From: Alphaproteobacteria bacterium
GTDB lineage: Bacteria > Pseudomonadota > Alphaproteobacteria > Sphingomonadales > Sphingomonadaceae
Assembly: GCA_018970445.1 (NCBI GenBank)
Contig: JAGWWF010000026.1
Coordinates: 1-46,009, forward strand
DNA: 46,009 nucleotides
Direction of reading: 5' to 3'
Shown piece by piece: positions 1 to 46,009 of the stretch; positions within the stretch are counted from its first letter, which is position 1, and each line of letters begins with the position of its first letter. Position numbers and translations under genes: made by a program. A model generated the notes under the pieces. The model was given only the letters and a program-made list of their open reading frames with translations, ran no database searches and was not told the origin of the DNA.

Positions 1-213
1 GGCGGTGGCTTTCCCCGTGTCCCGCCTGTCATGATGCGCCACGGGTGACGCATCGCGCGCCTGTGGCGCAGCGCGGCTGTGGGTGGGGTTGACGGTGGAA
101 AGAACGGGATCAGCATAACCGCATTTGCCCTGCGTAGGACAGGCAGTGGTTGCGGTGGTTGGGTTGGCACGGGGGAGCTTTGGAGCCTCCGGCCTGGATC
201 ACGTCCGGGGCGA

Positions 214-260
214 CGGGAAACAAGTGAATTTCCCTAATCGGGAAATTCACTTGTTTCCCG
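214..260. promoter_or_regulatory. Long perfect inverted repeat upstream of higB, probable autoregulatory operator
   Basis: Two 21-base arms (214-234 and 240-260) are exact reverse complements around a 5-base spacer, TAATC. The left arm begins CGGGAAACAAGTG. A further half-motif, CGGGAAA, follows at 264-270. The element ends 25 bases before the higB start. HigBA-type operons are commonly repressed by the antitoxin binding palindromes over the promoter, so an operator role is the likely reading. An RNA hairpin in the leader is the alternative. Confidence 0.7.
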
Positions 261-285: not shown

Positions 286-588
286 ATGAGGGTGATCGCC
301 CGCAATCATTTGGTGGCCTTCTGGACCAACCATCCTGAAACCGAAGCCTCGTTGCGGCATTGGTATGAGGTGACGGCGGCGGCCCGATGGCAAAGCCCAC
401 TGGATGCCGTGAACAGCTTCTCCAAGGCCAAGGCCCTGAACGGGGAGCGGGTGCGCTTTGAAGTGGCAGGCGGCGATTACCGGCTGGTGGTGGCGTTCGA
501 TTGGCGGCGCGGCATTGCCTTCATCAAGTTCATCGGCACCCACGCCGCCTATGACCGGATCGACGCCTTGAGCGTCAGCCTGTTCTGA
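286..588 (+). CDS. higB: HigB-family type II toxin (mRNA interferase)
   Basis: This 100-residue protein has the layout of HigB toxins of the RelE superfamily: an N-terminal stretch with FWTNHPETEASLRHWYE, a central RVRFEVAGGDYRLVVAFDW strand pair, and a C-terminal FIKFIGTHAAYDRID. The FIGTHAxYDxID ending is characteristic of this HigB group, which cleaves mRNA on translating ribosomes. Its length is normal for the family. It lies 13 bases upstream of an HTH antitoxin, so the order is toxin first, as is usual for higBA. A long palindrome just upstream is the probable control site. No strong ribosome binding site is visible before the ATG. Confidence 0.88.
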   Translation: MRVIARNHLVAFWTNHPETEASLRHWYEVTAAARWQSPLDAVNSFSKAKALNGERVRFEVAGGDYRLVVAFDWRRGIAFIKFIGTHAAYDRIDALSVSLF

Positions 589-601
589 AAGGATGCAGCC
601 C

Positions 602-967
602 ATGCAGATTCGCCCCATCCGCTCCGACGCCGATCACGAGGCCGCCCTGCGCGAAATCGAAACCCTGTGGGGTGCAGACGAAGGCAGCGAAGCCGGCGAC
701 CGGCTGGATGTTCTGGTCACGCTGGTGGAGGCCTATGAAGCCAAACGCTGGCCCATCGCCCCGCTCGATCCGGTGCAGGCCATCGAAGCCGCCATGGCCA
801 TGAACGGCCACACCCGCGCCGATCTCGCCGCGCTGGTCGGTCAATCCCGCGCCACCGAAATCCTGGCACGCAAGCGGGCGCTGACGCTGGGCATGATCCG
901 CAAGATTGCGGCGGCTTGGGCGGTGCCGGAGCGGGTGTTGGTGCAGGAATATGCGTTGGTGGGTTGA
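602..967 (+). CDS. higA: HigA-family antitoxin with helix-turn-helix domain
   Basis: The protein has 121 residues. The N-terminal half is acidic and helical (RSDADHEAALREIETLW), and the C-terminal half carries an XRE-type helix-turn-helix (roughly residues 68-110, including NGHTRADLAALVGQSRATEI). This arrangement is that of HigA antitoxins paired with HigB, where the N-terminal part neutralises the toxin and the HTH represses the operon. I chose the ATG at 602 rather than the in-frame ATG at 593, because AAAGGA lies at a proper distance from 602 but abuts 593. It follows higB closely and is surely co-transcribed. Confidence 0.85.
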   Translation: MQIRPIRSDADHEAALREIETLWGADEGSEAGDRLDVLVTLVEAYEAKRWPIAPLDPVQAIEAAMAMNGHTRADLAALVGQSRATEILARKRALTLGMIRKIAAAWAVPERVLVQEYALVG

Positions 968-997: not shown

Positions 998-1924
998 ATG
1001 GCCATTCCTGATTATCAGTCGCTGATGCTTCCGGTTCTCTCATTTGCTGCTGATGGAGAGACGCGCGTCCCACTGGCCGCTGAGATCATTGCAGATCGCT
1101 TGAAACTGTCTCCCGCTGAGCGTGAAGAGATGTTGCCGAGTGGCCGACAACGACTTCTTCACAATCGCGTGCATTGGGCAAAATTCTACCTGTCCAAGGC
1201 GGGATTGGTTGAATCGCCAAAGCGGGGCGTTTTCGTTGCGACATCGGCAGGAAGGGCGTTGCTTGCCAGTGCGCCTGGCCGGATTGATCTTCAGACACTG
1301 CTGGGAATCCCTGTCTTTGCTGAATATTATCAGCGGTTTGGCTCCTCGAAAGAGCCTGATCAGTCGGCGGCGCTGGAAGCGGTTGGAACGTCCACTGCGA
1401 CGCCTGAAGAGCAAATCGATGCGGCATATGCCGTGCTGACCAAGGCGCTGAAGGCCGATCTTTTGATGCGTGTTGTCGAGCAAAGCCCTGCCTTTTTCGA
1501 GCGTCTCATTGTCGAGCTCTTGGTCGGGATGGGATACGGCGGGTCGCAGGAGGATGCTGCCCGCCAACTCGGTCGAAGCGGTGACGGTGGTGTCGATGGC
1601 GTGATTGATGAAGACCGTCTTGGCCTGGATCGAATTTATGTGCAGGCAAAGCGCTATGGACAAGGATCAATTGTCGGCCGGCCAGACGTGCAGGGATTCG
1701 TTGGCAGCCTTGTTGGATTCGGAGCCAACAAAGGTGTGTTTGTCACCACATCGACATTCAGCCGCCAAGCCGTGGAATATGCCAAGGGCCTCCAACAACG
1801 GGTCATTCTGATCGATGGAGAGCGCTTGAGCGAATTGATGATTGAGTTCGGTGTCGGAGTGCGATTGCAGCGTACGGTTCAGATCAAGCGGCTCGATGAA
1901 GATTTCTTTGCTGACGAGACCTGA
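998..1924 (+). CDS. mrr: Mrr-type restriction endonuclease (type IV, modified-DNA specific)
   Basis: The product has 308 residues, close to the length of E. coli Mrr. Residues 1-90 match the N-terminal winged-helix Mrr domain (including RHxRVHWAKFYLSKAGL-like residues 55-70). The C-terminal catalytic domain has the PD-(D/E)xK signature: SGDGGVDG with Asp200, then QAK with Gln216 and Lys218, followed by GRPDVQGFVG and GVFVTTSTFS. Mrr enzymes cut DNA carrying methylated bases and act as defence nucleases. GC content is visibly lower than in neighbouring chromosomal genes, which suggests transfer. It starts 30 bases after higA and could share its transcript. The catalytic residues look intact, so the enzyme should be active. 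Confidence 0.9.
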   Translation: MAIPDYQSLMLPVLSFAADGETRVPLAAEIIADRLKLSPAEREEMLPSGRQRLLHNRVHWAKFYLSKAGLVESPKRGVFVATSAGRALLASAPGRIDLQTLLGIPVFAEYYQRFGSSKEPDQSAALEAVGTSTATPEEQIDAAYAVLTKALKADLLMRVVEQSPAFFERLIVELLVGMGYGGSQEDAARQLGRSGDGGVDGVIDEDRLGLDRIYVQAKRYGQGSIVGRPDVQGFVGSLVGFGANKGVFVTTSTFSRQAVEYAKGLQQRVILIDGERLSELMIEFGVGVRLQRTVQIKRLDEDFFADET

Positions 1925-2112
1925 TTTCCCTCACACCTTCCGCGGCATGCGCCACGGCAGCATCCAATGCGCCGCCCCGGTCGCGAAGCGCTTCATGTTG
2001 AGCGATTCGTGCACCGCCACCACGTCTTCGCCCCACAGGCGGGTGGCCAGGGCGGTGCGGCTGTAGAAGGGCGTGTCTTCCCAGGTGGCGGGAAGCCTCG
2101 CGGTGTCGCCGG
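1921..2112 (-). pseudogene. Duplicated 3' end of crtC (fragment)
   Basis: This stretch aligns without gaps to 2891-3082, the last ~180 bases of crtC plus about 10 bases beyond its stop codon. I count about 17 differences in ~192 positions, roughly 91% identity. Read leftward it encodes the CrtC C-terminus, from ATWEDTPFYSRTALATRLW to MPRKV and a stop (TCA at 1931-1933). Homology ends abruptly near 2112 and no upstream part of crtC follows, so it cannot make a functional protein. Many changes are silent, so the copy probably diverged while under selection, for example in another strain, before being brought here. Confidence 0.88.
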
Positions 2113-2406
2113 CCTCGGCATGTGGGCATGTCTCAACAAGTTCAGGATGCGACGTTCGGTCCGCGTTCCTGTCGCGCCCTTCTGGCTTGGGCAGTGGAGG
2201 TCATTGCAGACGATCTGCAGCGCCTGAGGTTCTGCGCCAATCGTTTCCGCATTCTGGGTGACGACCATCGTTGGCTGTGACCAAGGCACGTGATGCGGCC
2301 AACGCGAGCAATGAGAATATCTTCAACGCTGTCCGCACAGCCGGTGCCTGGCCTCACCATCAAACATTCAGGGGAGCACTCCGGCTCGCCCGACAGGAGA
2401 GGCAAG
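2113..2406. other. Non-coding stretch between crtC fragment and secreted-protein gene
   Basis: I see no convincing gene in this stretch. Open frames here have no recognisable protein features. The 3' end contains the ribosome binding site of the following gene (GACAGGAGAGGC at about 2393-2404). No repeat or mobile-element end was recognised. Confidence 0.5.
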
Positions 2407-2796
2407 ATGCGCACGAATCTGATGCTGGCTGCATTGTTGGCAGCCTTTGTTAGCTATCCAGCGAATGCGCAATTGAGGCGCACGATTTCCTTTGACAACA
2501 ATTGCGCGAAGGGGGTCCGTGTTTGGATCAGCCATGCAGATGGATACCGGAACTGGCATGTTCATGGACCGTTCAACTATTCGAGCATGGAAGGTCCGAC
2601 CCGGCTTGAAGACAATGGTGTGACCCTTACGCAAACCGATGATCATGCGGTGTATATTTATGCAGAGTCGGTTGATGGTCGAACTGTTTGGGAGGGTGAT
2701 TATCCTCAACAGTTTCAGGGTACACGGTTCAACATGATGAAGGCCAATACGAGCATCAGGAACGGGCAGCTGTATATCTCACTGACCTGTTCGTGA
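2407..2796 (+). CDS. Small exported protein, DUF1036-like
   Basis: The predicted protein has 129 residues. Residues 1-21 form a Sec signal peptide ending in YPANA. The mature part has paired cysteines far apart (NNCAKGV and the C-terminal LTCS), a WHVHG motif and VYIYAESVDG followed by VWEGDY. This pattern of conserved aromatics ending in W-x-G resembles DUF1036 proteins of alphaproteobacteria, but the match is by eye. The ATG at 2407 was chosen because AGGAGAGG precedes it at good spacing and it starts the signal peptide. GC content is low compared with the photosynthesis genes. It lies between two copies of the crtC 3' end, so it probably came with the accessory DNA. The function is unknown. 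Confidence 0.7.
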   Translation: MRTNLMLAALLAAFVSYPANAQLRRTISFDNNCAKGVRVWISHADGYRNWHVHGPFNYSSMEGPTRLEDNGVTLTQTDDHAVYIYAESVDGRTVWEGDYPQQFQGTRFNMMKANTSIRNGQLYISLTCS

Positions 2797-2900
2797 AGAT
2801 CACGTTCGCACACGTCGCCCAGTTGGAAGGCTGTTCGTTGGCGAATCCCTTGAAACTGCGTGAATGGACGCGGGTCTTTGGCCAGGGGTCCTGATCTTGC

Positions 2901-3908
2901 TCACAGCTTCCGCGGCATGCGCCACGGCAGCATCCACTGCACGGCGCCTGTCGCGAAGCGCTTCATGTTGAGGGATTCGTGCACGGCGACCACATCTTCG
3001 CCCCACAGGCGGGTGGCCAGGGCGGTGCGGCTGTAGAAGGGTGTGTCTTCCCAGGTGGCGCGAAGCCTTGCGGTGTAGCCGGGATCCGCGCGCGTCAGGC
3101 GGTCGAGGCGCCAGGCGGTCCTGGGCAGCACCACGGGGGCGGGCATTTCCATCACTTCGGCCTGGCCATCGGGGGTGATGCGCAGGGCCATGCCGAAATC
3201 GCTGCCGTCGGCCAATTGGCCTTCGTACATCACGGCGGTGGAGCCATCCTTGAGATGGGCGCGGCTCCACTGCCAGTCGGCAAAGCCGGCTTCCAGCGAT
3301 TCGCTGCCGTGGTTGGCATCGAGGTATCCGGTGCCGGCCCAGGTGACGGCGGGATCGGTGAAATTGGCCTCCACCCGGGCGCAGGGGGCCAGCGGTTCCC
3401 AGACGTGGCGGCCGGCGGGATCAAGCCGGAAGCGGCGCTGGCCATAGACCTGCGGCGTCACCCGCACCTGGCCGCGCACGTTCAGCGGCAGCACGGCGCC
3501 CTGTTCCTCGATGTCGATCACCAGGGTCTGCCCGTCCCAGCGCACCTGGCTGGGGCCGATGCGCAGCGTGTGGCGATCGCGCCACAGGGCGCCGGCACCG
3601 CGCTCCGTCATCGTCCAGCGGCGGACGCCCTTGCCATAGAGGGCGACGTTGAGGGAGACATGGTCTTCGGGGCGATCCCGGCCGGCGGCCTTGTAATAGG
3701 GGGAGAAGACCGAGCCGATGAAGGCGATGATGGTCAGGCCGAACTGTCCACAGTCGCTTTCGGCGTCGACATACCACCAGCGGTAGCCGCCGGGTGAAAG
3801 CTCCTGGTCGAAGCGCGGGCCGCAAGGATCGCTGCGCTCGCCAAGCGGCCGGACAAGGCCGCCATCGGCACGCCCGCCCCCGGATGCGCGCTGCCCGATG
3901 CCACCCAC
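2901..3908 (-). CDS. crtC: Hydroxyneurosporene 1,2-hydratase (carotenoid hydratase CrtC)
   Basis: CrtC adds water to the C-1,2 double bond of acyclic carotenoids, on the route to spheroidene or spirilloxanthin-type pigments of the photosynthetic membrane. Family features include GGYRWWYVDAESD, LTIIAFIGSVFSPYY, SLNVALYGKGVRRWTMTERG and the C-terminal HESLNMKRFATGAVQWMLPW. The nearest in-frame start before the conserved region is a GTG at 3908, giving about 335 residues. No ATG, GTG or TTG lies between it and the conserved FDQE near 3812. The gene therefore overlaps the end of crtD by up to 175 bases. A second, partial copy of its 3' end lies at 1921-2112. The start is uncertain. Confidence 0.85.
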   Translation of the reverse strand: MGGIGQRASGGGRADGGLVRPLGERSDPCGPRFDQELSPGGYRWWYVDAESDCGQFGLTIIAFIGSVFSPYYKAAGRDRPEDHVSLNVALYGKGVRRWTMTERGAGALWRDRHTLRIGPSQVRWDGQTLVIDIEEQGAVLPLNVRGQVRVTPQVYGQRRFRLDPAGRHVWEPLAPCARVEANFTDPAVTWAGTGYLDANHGSESLEAGFADWQWSRAHLKDGSTAVMYEGQLADGSDFGMALRITPDGQAEVMEMPAPVVLPRTAWRLDRLTRADPGYTARLRATWEDTPFYSRTALATRLWGEDVVAVHESLNMKRFATGAVQWMLPWRMPRKL

Positions 3909-5359
3909 AGCCCGGGCAGCTTCGTCCTGCTGCCCGGCCGGCGGAAGCTGGCCTGCCACCCGTGCGAGGCCCGACCATAAAGGGCCCCACCGCTCGAAGG
4001 GAAAAGCGCCTCGAACATCTTCGGCCCCACCGGATGAACGCTGTGCGGTTTCAGATGCAGCCCGCAGCGGGCCAGGACGGCCAGGGTAACTGTCTGACAT
4101 TGGGCCATCTCCTCGTCGGTTGGGGGCTGCCCGTCACCGGTGGGTGGGGCATTGACGATCAGTTGAAAACGCTCAAGCCCCGGCGGGGGCGGCGTGATGC
4201 CGCGGTCTTGCGCGCAGATGTAGATGCTGGGTTCGGCGGGCAGGCGGCGTTCGCCGAAGATGTGGCGGAATTCGGCGGCATAATCGCTGGAAAAGAACAC
4301 GTTGTGCCGATCCATCTCGAACCCGCTGGCTTCGGCCGTCATCATGGTGACCAGGGCGGAGAGCGAGCGTTCGTGGGGGCGCACCCCGGTGACGGCGTGG
4401 GCGGCACCGGTGCCGAAGCGGCCATCGGCAATCGCCGAAATGTCGCTGTTGGACAGCACGTCGCCGGCCGCAATCTCCTCGCCGCTGGCCAGACGCACCC
4501 CGGCGGCGCGGCCCTGGCGGACAAGGATTTCAGACACATGGGCGTTGTAGTGGAATTTCGCCCCCAGCCGCGTGGCCAGCGCCGCCAGCTGGCGCGCCAC
4601 CTCGTGCATGCCGCCATCCACCAGCCAGACGCCGCGGGCTTCGAGATGGGCGATGAGCATCAGCGTGGCGGTGGCCTGGAAGGGATCGGCGCCGGTGTAG
4701 GTGGCATAACGGCCATAGAGCTGGCGCAGGCGCGGATCGCGGAAATAGGTTCCCAGCGCCGTCCACAGCGTGGCGAACGGGTTGATCGCGAACATTTCAT
4801 GCAGGTGGAAGGGCGCATATTTCAGCGTGAGGCCCAGCGGGCCCATCGCCGGGCTTTCCATGAAGCGGGTTTCCAGCGCGCGGAAGATGCGCGCCGCCTC
4901 GGCCTGGAAGCGGGTCCAGCCGTCCGCCTCGCCCGCGCCGGCAAAGGCGGCGACGGCATCGCGGCTGCGGGCGTGATCGGCCCACAGATCAAGGCTGGAG
5001 CCATCGGGCCAGGCATGGCGGGCCAGGCGATCGGATTTGACCAGGGTGAGATGATCATCGAGCCGCGCACCGGCATCGGCAAAGATGCGTTCAAACACCG
5101 GGCGGTGGGTGAAGACGGTGGGGCCGGCATCGATGGCGCATCCGCCAACATCCACGGTGCGCAGCTTGCCGCCGGGATGGGCCATGCGTTCGACGACGGT
5201 TACGGCCAGGCCGCGCGCCGCCAGCAGCACGGCAGCAGCGAGGCCGCCCATGCCGGCGCCGATGATGACAATGCCGTCGTGCCCTGCCAAATCCCGTTTC
5301 CGAATCAATCCTGCCCGACGCGCGGCAAGGCCATGGCCAAAGCCGACCGTCAAGGTCAT
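3734..5359 (-). CDS. crtD: Hydroxyneurosporene (methoxyneurosporene) desaturase CrtD
   Basis: CrtD introduces the C-3,4 double bond into hydroxylated or methoxylated acyclic carotenoids. The 541-residue protein opens with a dinucleotide-binding motif, VIIGAGMGG (residues 31-39), followed by a conserved PGGKLRTVDVGG. It ends with the phytoene-desaturase-type signature HPGAGVPMAALSGRLA. The ATG at 5359 was chosen because upstream in-frame codons run into the divergent crtF gene and its control region. The conserved end lies only ~20 codons from where crtC homology begins, so the last part of crtD, down to the stop at 3734, overlaps crtC in another frame. It is transcribed away from crtF, with a PpsR-type site between them. 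Confidence 0.9.
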   Translation of the reverse strand: MTLTVGFGHGLAARRAGLIRKRDLAGHDGIVIIGAGMGGLAAAVLLAARGLAVTVVERMAHPGGKLRTVDVGGCAIDAGPTVFTHRPVFERIFADAGARLDDHLTLVKSDRLARHAWPDGSSLDLWADHARSRDAVAAFAGAGEADGWTRFQAEAARIFRALETRFMESPAMGPLGLTLKYAPFHLHEMFAINPFATLWTALGTYFRDPRLRQLYGRYATYTGADPFQATATLMLIAHLEARGVWLVDGGMHEVARQLAALATRLGAKFHYNAHVSEILVRQGRAAGVRLASGEEIAAGDVLSNSDISAIADGRFGTGAAHAVTGVRPHERSLSALVTMMTAEASGFEMDRHNVFFSSDYAAEFRHIFGERRLPAEPSIYICAQDRGITPPPPGLERFQLIVNAPPTGDGQPPTDEEMAQCQTVTLAVLARCGLHLKPHSVHPVGPKMFEALFPSSGGALYGRASHGWQASFRRPGSRTKLPGLWVASGSAHPGAGVPMAALSGRLASAAILAARASTRSFHPAATAGGMSTPKATVDSSA

Positions 5360-5380
5360 GATTGACCTTTGGACAGGCAC

Positions 5381-5398
5381 TGTCCAGAGAATTTGACA
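5381..5398. promoter_or_regulatory. PpsR/CrtJ-type operator between crtD and crtF
   Basis: The sequence TGTCCAGAGAATTTGACA fits TGT-N12-ACA, the established binding palindrome of the redox and light responsive repressor PpsR (CrtJ). It sits in the 54-base gap between the divergent crtD and crtF starts. It differs at only two positions from the site upstream of pufB (11704-11721). A short inverted repeat, GGACA-GGCAC-TGTCC (5371-5385), overlaps its left half. PpsR sites in such intergenic regions repress pigment genes under high oxygen, so joint control of crtD and crtF is likely. Confidence 0.78.
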
Positions 5399-5413
5399 CA
5401 TGCAGGCAGGGAC

Positions 5414-6583
5414 ATGACGGCAGGCAGCACAGACAGGACAGCACACAGCCTGCGGTTGCGCTGGCTCAATGCCCGCAACCGGGTGCTGGCCAGCCCGGCC
5501 TTCCAGCGCTTTGCCATGCGCAATCCCCTGTTCCGCCGCACGGCGCGGTTCCATGCCAACAGCATGTTTGCGGTGATCACCGGCTTTGTGCAGACGAAAG
5601 CGCTCACCGCCGCGGTGGATGCCGGGCTGATCCGGCGGCTGGCCGACGGGCCGGCGACGACGGCGGAACTGGCCACGGTGTCGGGGCTGGCGCTGGCGGC
5701 GGTGCAGCGGCTGCTGGGCGCGGCCAGGGCGATCGATCTGGTGGAACTGGCCGAGGATGATCTGTGGGTGCTCGGCCAGCGCGGCGCGGCGCTTTCAAGC
5801 AACCAGGGCGCGCTGGCGATGATCGAACATCACAAGATCTTCTATGATGATCTGGCCGATCCCATTGCCATGCTGAAAGGCGGGCGCGGCCAGGGCAAGC
5901 TGGCGGCGTTCTGGACCTATGCCCCGGCAGCCGGGCAGGGGCAGCCGGCGGCGGCCGATGCCGCCAGCTGGCAGGGCGGCGGTGATGGCATGGTTGCCCC
6001 CTATTCGGCGCTGATGGCGGCCAGCCAGCCGATGGTGGCCGAACAGCTGCTGGATGCCTATCCGTTTGGCCGGCACCGCTGCCTGATGGATGTGGGCGGC
6101 GGCCATGGCGCATTTCTGGCCGCAGTGGCAGGGCGTCACCCCGGCCTGGCGCTCAAACTGTTCGATCTGCCGGCGGTGGTGGACGGGGCGAAGGCGAAGC
6201 TGGCGGCGCGCGGGCTGGGTGATGTGGCGCTTCATGGCGGCAGTTTCCGCGATGATCCGCTGCCGCAGGGGGCCGATGTGATCAGCCTGGTGCGGATCTG
6301 CCATGATCATGATGATGATGTGGTGCGCGCGCTGCTGGCCAGGGCCCACGCCGTACTGCCGCCGGGCGGCCGGCTGCTGATTGCCGAACCGATGGCCGGC
6401 ACGGCGGGGGCCGAGGTGATGGGCGATGCCTATTTCGGCCTGTATCTGTGGGCGATGGGATCGGGGCGGCCGCGCACGGCAGCCGACTATCGGGCGCTGC
6501 TGGCCCAGGCCGGCTTTGCCGGTGCGCGCGAAGTGGCGACAGCGCTGCCGATGGTGACCAGGCTGGTGGTGGCGGAACGCTAA
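5414..6583 (+). CDS. crtF: Demethylspheroidene O-methyltransferase CrtF
   Basis: CrtF transfers a methyl group from S-adenosylmethionine to the 1-hydroxyl of acyclic carotenoids, after CrtC and CrtD act. The 389-residue product has an N-terminal dimerisation and winged-helix part (FVQTKALTAAVDAGL) and a C-terminal methyltransferase fold with the SAM motif DVGGGHG (residues 226-232), VRICHDHDDD and GRLLIAEPMAGT. I used the ATG at 5414, preceded by AGGCAGGGAC, because the longer in-frame start at 5369 would run through the PpsR operator. It begins the rightward arm of the cluster, 160 bases before bchC. Confidence 0.92.
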   Translation: MTAGSTDRTAHSLRLRWLNARNRVLASPAFQRFAMRNPLFRRTARFHANSMFAVITGFVQTKALTAAVDAGLIRRLADGPATTAELATVSGLALAAVQRLLGAARAIDLVELAEDDLWVLGQRGAALSSNQGALAMIEHHKIFYDDLADPIAMLKGGRGQGKLAAFWTYAPAAGQGQPAAADAASWQGGGDGMVAPYSALMAASQPMVAEQLLDAYPFGRHRCLMDVGGGHGAFLAAVAGRHPGLALKLFDLPAVVDGAKAKLAARGLGDVALHGGSFRDDPLPQGADVISLVRICHDHDDDVVRALLARAHAVLPPGGRLLIAEPMAGTAGAEVMGDAYFGLYLWAMGSGRPRTAADYRALLAQAGFAGAREVATALPMVTRLVVAER

Positions 6584-43984: not shown

Positions 43985-44446
43985 CAGAGCCGGGCGCGTG
44001 CCGCCTGTTAGGGGACAAGAGTGATTAGAGGCCGGGATTGACCGGCACGACCGGGTATCATCCGGGATTTGTGTAGCATTATGAAGGCCTTCAAGAGGGT
44101 GTCAAACCGGTGGGCCGCGCGTTTCACTGTCTAAAGTGAAGGCCGATTTAGACAGCAGATCGACAAGACCGTCTGGAGTCAACGGGTTGCGCGTGTTTGG
44201 CTCTGAGAAGCCTCTTATCGATGGTGGAGAGGTGCCCTGGAAGCCTCTTAGGCGGCGCGGCGGGGCGGCGTGGATCATGCGGAAGTGGGCCCTGGGATGG
44301 CCCAGTTCCGCCCAGTTCCGAAAATTCAGCGATGTTATTGAATTGGAGGGATAATCGCCTAACTCAGCAGCGTCATGCGGGCCGGGTGTGGGCGCTGGAA
44401 GTGGGCCCGTGGCAGATGGGCCACATTGTGGCCTGGCAGACACAGA
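43985..44446. other. Gene-free left end of the prophage
   Basis: No gene is supported here. The stretch holds short repeats: GAAGCCTCTTA at 44207-44217 and 44240-44250, GGAAGTGGGCCC at 44281-44292 and 44397-44408, and a tandem CCCAGTTCCG at 44301-44320. An inverted GTCTAAA pair lies at 44129-44153. Repeated short motifs of this kind suit transposase binding sites at a Mu-like left end, but no outer boundary can be fixed from this sequence alone. Confidence 0.5.
44129..44153. repeat. Inverted GTCTAAA repeat in prophage left end
   Basis: GTCTAAA (44129-44135) and TTTAGAC (44147-44153) are exact inverted repeats, 11 bases apart. The sequence just left, CGTTTCACT (44120-44128), matches the first nine positions of the Mu end-site consensus YGTTTCAYT. 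It may be a transposase or repressor site. A direct copy of GTCTAAA also occurs at 45372-45378 near the end of the Ner-like gene. Confidence 0.5.
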
Positions 44447-45100
44447 TCAGGCAGGCTTGAGGCCGAAGGTGCCGAGGATGCGAGCGGCGATGCGCATTCC
44501 GGGCGGCTCATCGGGTTCCCAGGTGCCAGGTGGGGGCGGCTGTTTGTCTTCGGGGAAGTTGCGGACGATGGGTTTGCCTTCAAGAAACCACAGATAAAAT
44601 CCCTGCGCGGCCCAGCTTTCGGTATCTTCGCAGAGGATCAAATCGCCTGCGATGCCCAGGGCGGGGAACTTGCTGGTTGGCAGTTCCGCCAGCCAGAGAT
44701 TTTTCGAGCGGCGAACGTGGCTGTAAAGCCAATCGCGGCGGATAGGAATCACCTCGGCCGGCTCCGGCTTCCCTTCCGGGGTGAAGGCGTGGAGATCGTA
44801 GCGGGGCAGATCGACCCATTCGGCGTCATCGGCGCTGCGCAGCGACCCGCGCGGTCGGCGTTCCTGCCCGGTTATCAGCCATTCTACTGAAACATCAAGG
44901 GCTTGGGCAATGCGTACGGCTGGTTCGGCACCGGGTGACACCTTGTAGACCATGTCGCGAAATGAAGTCGGGTTCAGCCCGGCTTCCTTGGCAAAAGTAG
45001 TCAGCGGCTTGCCCCCGAGGCGTGCCAAAATGCGCTCACCCCATGGCGTAGGCGTTTTTTCACTTGCATCTGCAAGAATTTTCGTGTTTTTCGGCGTCAT
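44447..45100 (-). CDS. Prophage repressor (XRE HTH with S24-like C-terminal domain)
   Basis: The 217-residue protein has an N-terminal HTH (LTTFAKEAGLNPTSFRDMVY and ALDVSVEWLITGQ) and a C-terminal domain like those of LexA/CI-type repressors (AGDLILCEDTESWAAQGFYL). The usual Ser of the S24 peptidase S-M-x-P motif is not visible: the matching stretch reads TSKFPALGIAGD. Self-cleavage is therefore doubtful. It is transcribed away from the early genes, with only 27 bases to the divergent start at 45128. The ATG at 45100 was preferred over the longer frame start at 45148, which would run into the Ner-like gene. Confidence 0.82.
   Translation of the reverse strand: MTPKNTKILADASEKTPTPWGERILARLGGKPLTTFAKEAGLNPTSFRDMVYKVSPGAEPAVRIAQALDVSVEWLITGQERRPRGSLRSADDAEWVDLPRYDLHAFTPEGKPEPAEVIPIRRDWLYSHVRRSKNLWLAELPTSKFPALGIAGDLILCEDTESWAAQGFYLWFLEGKPIVRNFPEDKQPPPPGTWEPDEPPGMRIAARILGTFGLKPA
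45063..45076. promoter_or_regulatory. Candidate phage operator palindrome at the repressor start
   Basis: CTTGCA-TC-TGCAAG is a perfect inverted repeat inside the first codons of the repressor, in an AT-rich stretch (45060-45095). The gap between repressor and Ner-like gene is only 27 bases, so the early operator probably lies within coding sequence. This is the best palindrome there. Confidence 0.5.
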
Positions 45101-45127
45101 GACACCACATGATGCGGAATAACGGCC

Positions 45128-45394
45128 ATGAGCTACCACTCCTTCCACGCCGAAGACGTGAAGGCGGCTATTCGCAAGCGCTTCGGTTCATTGGCAAAAT
45201 TCGAGATGGAGCACGGCTTTCCGCCGAAAAGCGTTTCGGCGGTTCTGCGCGGAGCAACGAGCGCGCGTATCGGCGCGGCGCTGGACGCTGTGATGGTGCT
45301 GGAACGGGCCACGGTGCTCCTCAAGTCGTCGGAATTTTCAGGTTCTACCGCAATGCGCCGTGGCGCGCATCGTCTAAATCGAGAGGCCGCTTGA
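45128..45394 (+). CDS. Ner-like DNA-binding protein
   Basis: The 88-residue protein matches the small Ner/Nlp winged-helix proteins of Mu-like phages: HAEDVKAAIRKRFGSLAKFE, EMEHGFPPKSVSAVLRG and a following RIGAALDAVM helix. Ner represses early transcription after induction. The C-terminal ~25 residues are basic and not conserved. It is divergent from the repressor and first in the early operon. Confidence 0.82.
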   Translation: MSYHSFHAEDVKAAIRKRFGSLAKFEMEHGFPPKSVSAVLRGATSARIGAALDAVMVLERATVLLKSSEFSGSTAMRRGAHRLNREAA

Positions 45395-45396
45395 AC

Positions 45397-45918
45397 ATGG
45401 CTGGCCGGTCGGGTCGCGGCTCTGAAATGGGCGCGCGCATTTTGCAGGCTTTGGACGGGCGGCCGCTGAAGTGGCTGAGCGTTCGGTCTGGCGTGGCAAC
45501 GCAAACTTTGAGCAACACCACGGCGTTGGGCAGCATGATGGCGGCCGACAAGGCAGCGCGGGTGGCGCGCGCGTTGAAGGTTTCAGCCGAATGGCTGATC
45601 CTGGGTGAGCAGCCCGATTTGACAGCGACGCCGCCGCCGCCAGCGCCGGAAGATCGCAGCCGGGACAGCGCCGCGACCGCGATGGTCGCCCGGCTGATGC
45701 CGCCGGCTGGCCCTGATGGTCGCAAGCGCTGGCCGGTGTGGTTCCATGACAAGCCGGTGCTTGAGGCCGTGCTGGAAACCCATCGCCGGGCCGAAATGGA
45801 CCGGGTGCTGGCCGATCTGCAGGAACGGTTTGGCAGCCGCGCGCCGTCGCGATCCTCGCTGGGCCGGTTCTGGTTGCGGCTGGATGCGATGTTTGCCGCC
45901 GGACAGGAGAAAATCTGA
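45397..45918 (+). CDS. Phage HTH regulator with DUF3486-like C-terminus
   Basis: The 173-residue protein has an XRE-type HTH at residues ~14-70 (LKWLSVRSGVATQTLSNTTA, then VARALKVSAEWLILGE), a Pro-rich linker, and a C-terminal helical part with LADLQERFGSRAPSRSSLGR, which resembles DUF3486 proteins of Mu-like phages. The role is unknown; regulation of early genes is likely. The ATG at 45397 starts two bases after the stop of the Ner-like gene. The stop overlaps the next start by one base. Confidence 0.75.
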   Translation: MAGRSGRGSEMGARILQALDGRPLKWLSVRSGVATQTLSNTTALGSMMAADKAARVARALKVSAEWLILGEQPDLTATPPPPAPEDRSRDSAATAMVARLMPPAGPDGRKRWPVWFHDKPVLEAVLETHRRAEMDRVLADLQERFGSRAPSRSSLGRFWLRLDAMFAAGQEKI

Positions 45919-46009
45919 TGGCTGCCGCTCCAAAACCCGCTGGCGAAGCCATCCTGCGCCTGCCCGTCGATCAGATCGACATCCCGGCCGACCGGCTGCG
46001 CGCGCTGAA
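45918..46009 (+). CDS. ParB-like nuclease domain protein (partial, cut by window end)
   Basis: Only the first 30 residues are in the window. They include ILRLPVDQIDIPADRLRAL, the start of a ParB N-terminal (ParB/Srx) domain, where the text usually continues into a D-x-x-x-x-L/I-x-x-S-I motif. ParB-domain proteins precede the transposase genes in several alphaproteobacterial Mu-like phages. The start overlaps the preceding stop (TGATG). Confidence 0.75.
   Translation, partial: MAAAPKPAGEAILRLPVDQIDIPADRLRAL

Follow-up and report, generated by a model that had tools for sequence, protein, structure and literature searches.

At the crtC stop codon, inside the photosynthesis gene cluster of the Sandarakinorhabdus limnophila group of freshwater bacteria, sequence comparison places the left-hand wall of a slot with hypervariable content. 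The slot has conserved walls, cassettes that are dissimilar from one another, an enrichment in defence families, and two alleles in the assembly of one genome (G018). We interpret it as a compact, integrase-free defence hotspot whose cassettes probably swap by homologous recombination via the flanking genes, with a doubled crtC end as a stacking scar (probability roughly 0.7). The doubled end lies in the analysed window, a 46,009-nt stretch that corresponds to C6:1-46009 of genome G000 (3.03 Mb, 45 contigs, low estimated contamination of 0.36).

Walls of the slot and its place in the photosynthesis gene cluster

A DNA search for crtC ends in 24 genomes of the genus identified them in 23, with exactly one copy in 21 genomes, none in one, two in G018, and three in G000. 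Slot content was readable for 11 alleles from nine genomes of the S. limnophila group. S. cyanobacteriorum (G001) was excluded as unreadable, its contig stopping 103 nt past the crtC stop codon. The outgroups were also excluded, two for having another gene after crtC (G007 and G017) and one for its short spacer (G010). Within the group, crtC itself is 84–95% conserved, and only a few nucleotides from its stop codon the sequence becomes entirely different. The right wall is located at the higA stop codon in C6, G018b (one of the two G018 alleles), and G019, and ~6 nt inside higA in G020. Right-hand similarity resumes in a cut higA in C22 (a second G000 contig), G018a, and G008, and at an S41-peptidase gene in G006, G011, and G021. 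All alleles have crtC on the left and most have higA or S41 on the right, the exceptions being G004 and G019. The region is deleted in G004, where 161 nt remain and are followed by unrelated conserved genes. The slot contig of G019 stops just after higA, in sequence that we take to resemble the start of an IS30-type transposase, and its S41 gene is not at the slot but at L141 (G019:C154:30500-34815). There it adjoins an ORF, recognised by eye and presumably gyrB-like, instead of a cassette; either the gene has moved or the neighbourhood has been rearranged.

The original prediction treated Mrr, HigBA, and the repeated crtC end as one accessory block and expected a single crtC end in genomes without Mrr/HigBA. 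Single ends do prevail, and they are also found next to HigBA; such a block is not supported: intact HigBA in G018b and G020 and HigA in G019 adjoin a single crtC end. HigBA is therefore the right wall of the slot and not cargo of the repeat. Half-sites (TTTCCC/GGGAA) resembling the palindrome upstream of higB in the window precede higB in G018b and G020 as well.

Contig C22 (199,957 nt) continues after the slot with the S41 gene, bchD, bchI, the 5-aminolevulinate synthase gene, and acsF, and C6 carries crtD and bchX, which places the slot inside the photosynthesis gene cluster. The location in G000 agrees with the published cluster order of strain AAP62, bchIDO-5xORFs-crtCDF (PMC3587927). At the right end of the window (44005-46009) there are phage-repressor-like ORFs, and this end is 84% identical over 448 nt, and 98% over the last 92 nt, to contig C43 of the same genome (L145, G000:C43), in which there is a Mu-type transposase. 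It seems that a Mu-like prophage adjoins the photosynthesis cluster and that the genome has another one. A REP-like word, GCTGAACTTGTTTCAG, recurs in G000 contigs C22, C29, C39, C42, and others, often in inverted pairs ~75 nt apart, with copies close to the slot's right-hand side in C22 and G018a among them (listed site L110, about 2550-2720).

Cassette content

Cassettes range from 161 to 4,056 nt across the 11 alleles, and no similarity between any two of them was detected by blastn (E ≤ 1e-3) or tblastx (E ≤ 1e-4). Strong PADLOC matches were identified in six of the 11. These are Mrr in C6, where it is accompanied by an orphan secreted protein; a type II methyltransferase with an HNH nuclease in C22; PDC-S19 in G021, also a Pfam DUF3644 match; a D12 methyltransferase beside a DGQHR protein in G006; HEC-08 in G018b, which also matches a PADLOC DUF3644 model; and PD-T7-1 in G019. 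The DUF3644-type proteins of G021 and G018b have no BLASTP similarity to each other (E 0.19). The G006 genes (L115:7249-11074) are consecutive and code for the DGQHR protein (NCBIfam 1.7e-19), a 449-aa unknown, and the D12 adenine methyltransferase, possibly an undescribed modification-based defence operon. The five alleles without a strong defence match are G004, which is empty and has no gene; G008, with helix-turn-helix and M78 peptidase pieces that have only weak PADLOC matches; G011, with no recognised gene; G018a, with two unknowns (a 189+167-aa pair); and G020, with an RDD membrane protein.

PADLOC matches at E ≤ 1e-15 were found for 7/17 cassette proteins and 0/33 flanking proteins (best flanking match 3.6e-9; one-sided Fisher p 1.9e-4), a cut that was chosen after the matches had been seen; at 1e-5 the counts are 10/17 and at most 4/33. 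The 33 control ORFs were chosen by high third-position GC, which under-samples accessory genes. Classified by PADLOC family, the slot appears enriched in anti-phage systems, family membership not being proof of defence. New defence genes might be sought first among the unnamed cassettes, which make up a short candidate list.

The doubled crtC 3' end

Features of the locus are listed in Table 1. The gene at the left wall is one that we take to be crtC; the adjoining crtD was assigned by NCBIfam.

Table 1. Features at the crtC end of the analysed window (positions in C6; candidate functions are predictions).
Feature	Position	Strand	Evidence
Contig end of C6, common to C22:2857-2999 (C22 continues to the S41 gene)	1..143	.	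142/143 identical, with no mismatch in the 132 nearest the contig end
Perfect palindrome, 47 bp, 21-bp arms, upstream of higB; candidate HigA operator	214..260	.	Repeat search
higB, toxin gene	286..588	+	Pfam HigB_toxin 5.5e-22; PADLOC PD-Lambda-2_A 3.3e-31
higA, antitoxin gene; its stop codon forms the right wall	593..967	+	PADLOC PD-Lambda-2_B 7.6e-30, residues 4-119 only
mrr, type IV restriction enzyme; probable older cassette	998..1924	+	Pfam Mrr_cat 2.9e-35, Mrr_N 6.6e-28; PADLOC mREase_IV 2e-101
Outer copy of the crtC 3' end, apparently displaced and decaying	1928..2119, stop codon 1931-1933	-	Repeat search, codon comparison, tree, BLAST
REP-like word, imperfect (one mismatch), where the outer copy joins the newer cassette	2131..2146	-	Sequence
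Probable newer, truncated cassette between both crtC ends	2120..2890	.	54.7% GC; no similarity to any other cassette
Putative secreted protein, 129 aa, orphan	2407..2796	+	No family match
In-frame tail, stopping 6 nt short of the crtC stop codon (complement), as the mrr end does	2793..2894	+	Frame +1
Inner copy, the 3' end of intact crtC	2898..3089	-	Repeat search, homology
crtC, carotenoid 1,2-hydratase; left wall of the slot	2901..3860 (ORF 2901-4100)	-	319/319 residues match Sandarakinorhabdus crtC loci, up to 93%
crtD	3734..5554	-	NCBIfam CrtD 1.7e-195

The crtC end is indeed present twice, as originally described. A repeat search of the window found a single long direct repeat of 215 nt (1905-2119 / 2875-3089, spacing 970). 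When the outer copy was compared with the window by BLAST, the solid part of the repeat came to 183 nt, 92.4% identical to 2900-3082. The next best match of the outer copy in the window is only 23 nt, which excludes chance. The outer copy comprises only the last ~63 codons of crtC, and the inner copy closes an intact gene. When the 63 codons were compared (stop included), 10 differed silently and seven changed an amino acid, so the earlier description of mostly silent changes is right only in part. The fragment was also said to begin exactly at the mrr stop codon; the two stop codons (1931-1933 for the outer crtC copy, 1922-1924 for mrr) are within a few bases of each other and do not coincide.

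The gene between the copies was correctly picked out as low in GC (50.3%, compared to 55.4% for mrr and 66.5% for the window). Its 129-aa product has no Pfam, PADLOC, NCBIfam, or PHROG match and, outside G000, one weak match among 298 genomes of the family (27% identity, E 1.7e-5). The tail that follows may be the remnant of a lost convergent gene; a homology search with its peptide found no relative. Mrr has both the Mrr_N and the Mrr catalytic domain, as a type IV restriction enzyme should (Pfam, PADLOC). Homologs occur in 4/24 genomes including G000, and in the other three they are never on the crtC-bearing contig.

Relative to 11 other crtC ends, five of the seven amino acid changes are private to the outer copy. 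They include R to P, V to A, and Q to H at otherwise non-varying sites, the one exception to this invariance being a neighbouring V to A change in L004. Private changes at invariant sites suggest that the outer copy was once a working end and has since decayed, and it looks like a displaced former end of the gene. The same changes bear on the idea of an assembly chimera that joins two strains at crtC. Contig ends do occur at the locus and strains may be mixed, but decay at sites invariant in the other ends is at odds with such a join, the repeat lies far within C6, ~1.9 kb in from its end, and a k-mer join is improbable since the copies differ at 15/183 sites. We consider a chimera very unlikely.

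A tree of 15 crtC ends (183 nt), in which no fork passes both support limits, joins the inner copy to S. cyanobacteriorum (support 89/76); the outer copy has no resolved position within the same broad group. The inner copy differs from S. cyanobacteriorum at 9/183 sites, fewer than separate it from the outer copy. The copies are not sisters in this weakly supported tree, and a recent duplication within the genome is disfavoured. A simple tandem duplication of the crtC end, with the secreted-protein gene inserted later, would explain why the copies are adjacent, on the same strand, and 970 bp apart, but given these distances and this topology it is a most improbable origin. The tree supports the earlier proposal that DNA with its own crtC end recombined at crtC; the accompanying claim of another, identifiable lineage as the source of the outer copy was not borne out, and no donor was found in this tree. 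A mosaic break within crtC was considered and rejected: the inner end and the upstream part differ from S. cyanobacteriorum at 9/183 and 78/777 sites (Fisher p 0.03), which is too weak after many comparisons. The outer copy stops abruptly near 2124, at the imperfect REP-like word. A REP element at the junction was rejected, the word there being imperfect and its perfect form occurring elsewhere in the genome.

Islands such as icd/e14 and rlmH/SCC integrate at gene 3' ends, and phages and islands of the icd/e14 type bring a replacement end with them. They duplicate the gene end with divergent sequence, as at crtC. Site-specific integration of this kind, with the repeat as attL/attR around a decayed element, would account for breakpoints that lie, in every allele, only a few bases from the crtC stop codon, and for the direct repeat of the gene end on both sides of 778 nt in C6. 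It is nonetheless quite unlikely. No integrase or transposase was found by Pfam among the 17 cassette proteins (ORFs from 70 aa up), the cassettes are only 0.2-4 kb, and the target-gene end is repeated at the far side only in C6. In the other slot stretches, blastn-short detected no second crtC-end copy of >17 nt, and hence no distal att copy.

We instead favour cassette stacking through homologous recombination. The outer crtC stop codon and the higA stop codon are 963 nt apart, an interval filled by mrr and close to the 1,114-1,598 nt in G020, G018b, and G019, so the mrr cassette fits the slot by itself. The extra piece in C6 is a crtC end plus a truncated cassette of about 0.77 kb. An older allele, crtC-mrr-higBA, would have received a piece of DNA that recombined homologously in crtC, with an illegitimate join inside the old crtC end at about codon -63, near the REP-like word. 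The product would have the order crtC(new end) - truncated new cassette - old crtC end - mrr - higBA. The doubled end looks like the scar of one cassette swap and, judged from the alleles compared, is a single event at a locus where no two readable alleles have the same content. The integration footprint originally proposed is, taken as a whole, partly supported.

Coexisting alleles and comparison with known hotspots

Contigs C66 and C29 of G018 have exactly 119 bp in common at each end. These 119-mers recur at C40:1-119 (a contig end) and C48:9548-9666, which closes an assembly bubble with one chromosome context and two alternative 6.8-kb middles that have different cassettes. The middles are 92.5% identical on the crtC side (1,047 nt) and 90.1% on the S41 side (3,793 nt). 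Diverged arms between identical outer flanks are the trace that homologous import of a whole allele would be expected to leave, and we infer import of the RecA type. A mixture of two close species sharing the 119-mers is a weaker alternative.

In G000, C6 and C22 each span the slot between the same walls; their cassettes differ, and the two contigs overlap at either end. C22:1-274 carries the third crtC end of this genome (94% to C6), with C22:1-53 identical to crtC of C6, and C6:1-143 is 99.3% identical to C22:2857-2999 (X), with 93.4% identity in the adjacent higA. The simplest reading is that the sample contained two alleles. The contigs could also lie in series on one chromosome, as a tandem array (crtC end - A - crtC end - mrr - higBA - X - gap - crtC end - MTase/HNH - X' - S41). 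Such an array would fit three crtC ends in one assembly of low estimated contamination, and each of C22:1 and C6:1 is the end of a contig, in sequence that the other contig also carries. We regard it as unlikely: G018 gives the same picture as a proven bubble, only one S41 gene is present in G000, the two photosynthesis-cluster halves joined by C6 are also those joined by C22, and X is more similar than the adjacent higA.

Under the favoured hotspot reading, each allele would hold a different small cassette, often an anti-phage system, and incoming DNA would be exchanged by RecA-type homologous recombination through crtC and higA/S41. No element-encoded integrase would be needed, and phages may drive cassette turnover. 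With an exchange site for phage defence amid anoxygenic photosynthesis genes, crtC and the pigment genes around it could travel along when phages drive exchange. A further reading, tentative and at somewhat less than even odds, is an MHC-like polymorphic immune slot in the photosynthesis cluster, with one small cassette per allele, coexisting alleles, integrase-free swapping via crtC and higA/S41, and undescribed anti-phage systems in the family-less cassettes. If so, the candidate systems are the G018a 189+167-aa pair, the G020 RDD protein, the G006 449-aa protein, and the secreted protein of the window.

The HigB-like and HigA-like proteins match the PD-Lambda-2 A and B models, a system that has a HigA domain fused to a peptidase and a third component (PMC9519451). 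We rejected this assignment: the HigA match (4-119) is confined to residues 1-120 of the 402-aa model and lacks the peptidase part, and there is no third component, the next gene being mrr. The proposed crtC product, crtC(new) - foreign DNA - crtC(old end), is what one homologous and one illegitimate junction would yield in homology-facilitated illegitimate recombination, a process described in transformation or conjugation experiments (PMC3240628); here, a product of this kind is all that is seen.

Flank-defined defence hotspots are already known. The core defence hotspots cDHS1 and cDHS2 of Pseudomonas aeruginosa have fixed flanking genes, highly variable content rich in anti-phage systems, and no tie to one mobile element, and transfer by homologous recombination in the flanks was proposed (PMC10250203). 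The crtC slot resembles them in its conserved flanks and variable, defence-rich content. Homologous swapping has only been proposed for other hotspots; the G018 bubble, two versions of the slot in one population, makes plain swapping of defence alleles testable. Among the literature matches listed, none described such a slot in Sandarakinorhabdus; this does not prove that no description exists. What is new about the crtC slot is its location, walls fixed to the base at stop codons, cassettes of small size, and a bubble within a population whose arms have recombined. With walls this exact, PCR can read the slot across strains. The cassettes of 161-4,056 nt compare with a median of 26 kb given for cDHS1, and both cDHS flank tRNA or tmRNA genes (PMC10250203), of which none was found within the 46-kb window; a tRNA landing site was thus rejected. 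Unlike the cDHS as presented there, the slot has the stop codons of convergent genes as its walls and is located inside a photosynthesis gene cluster.
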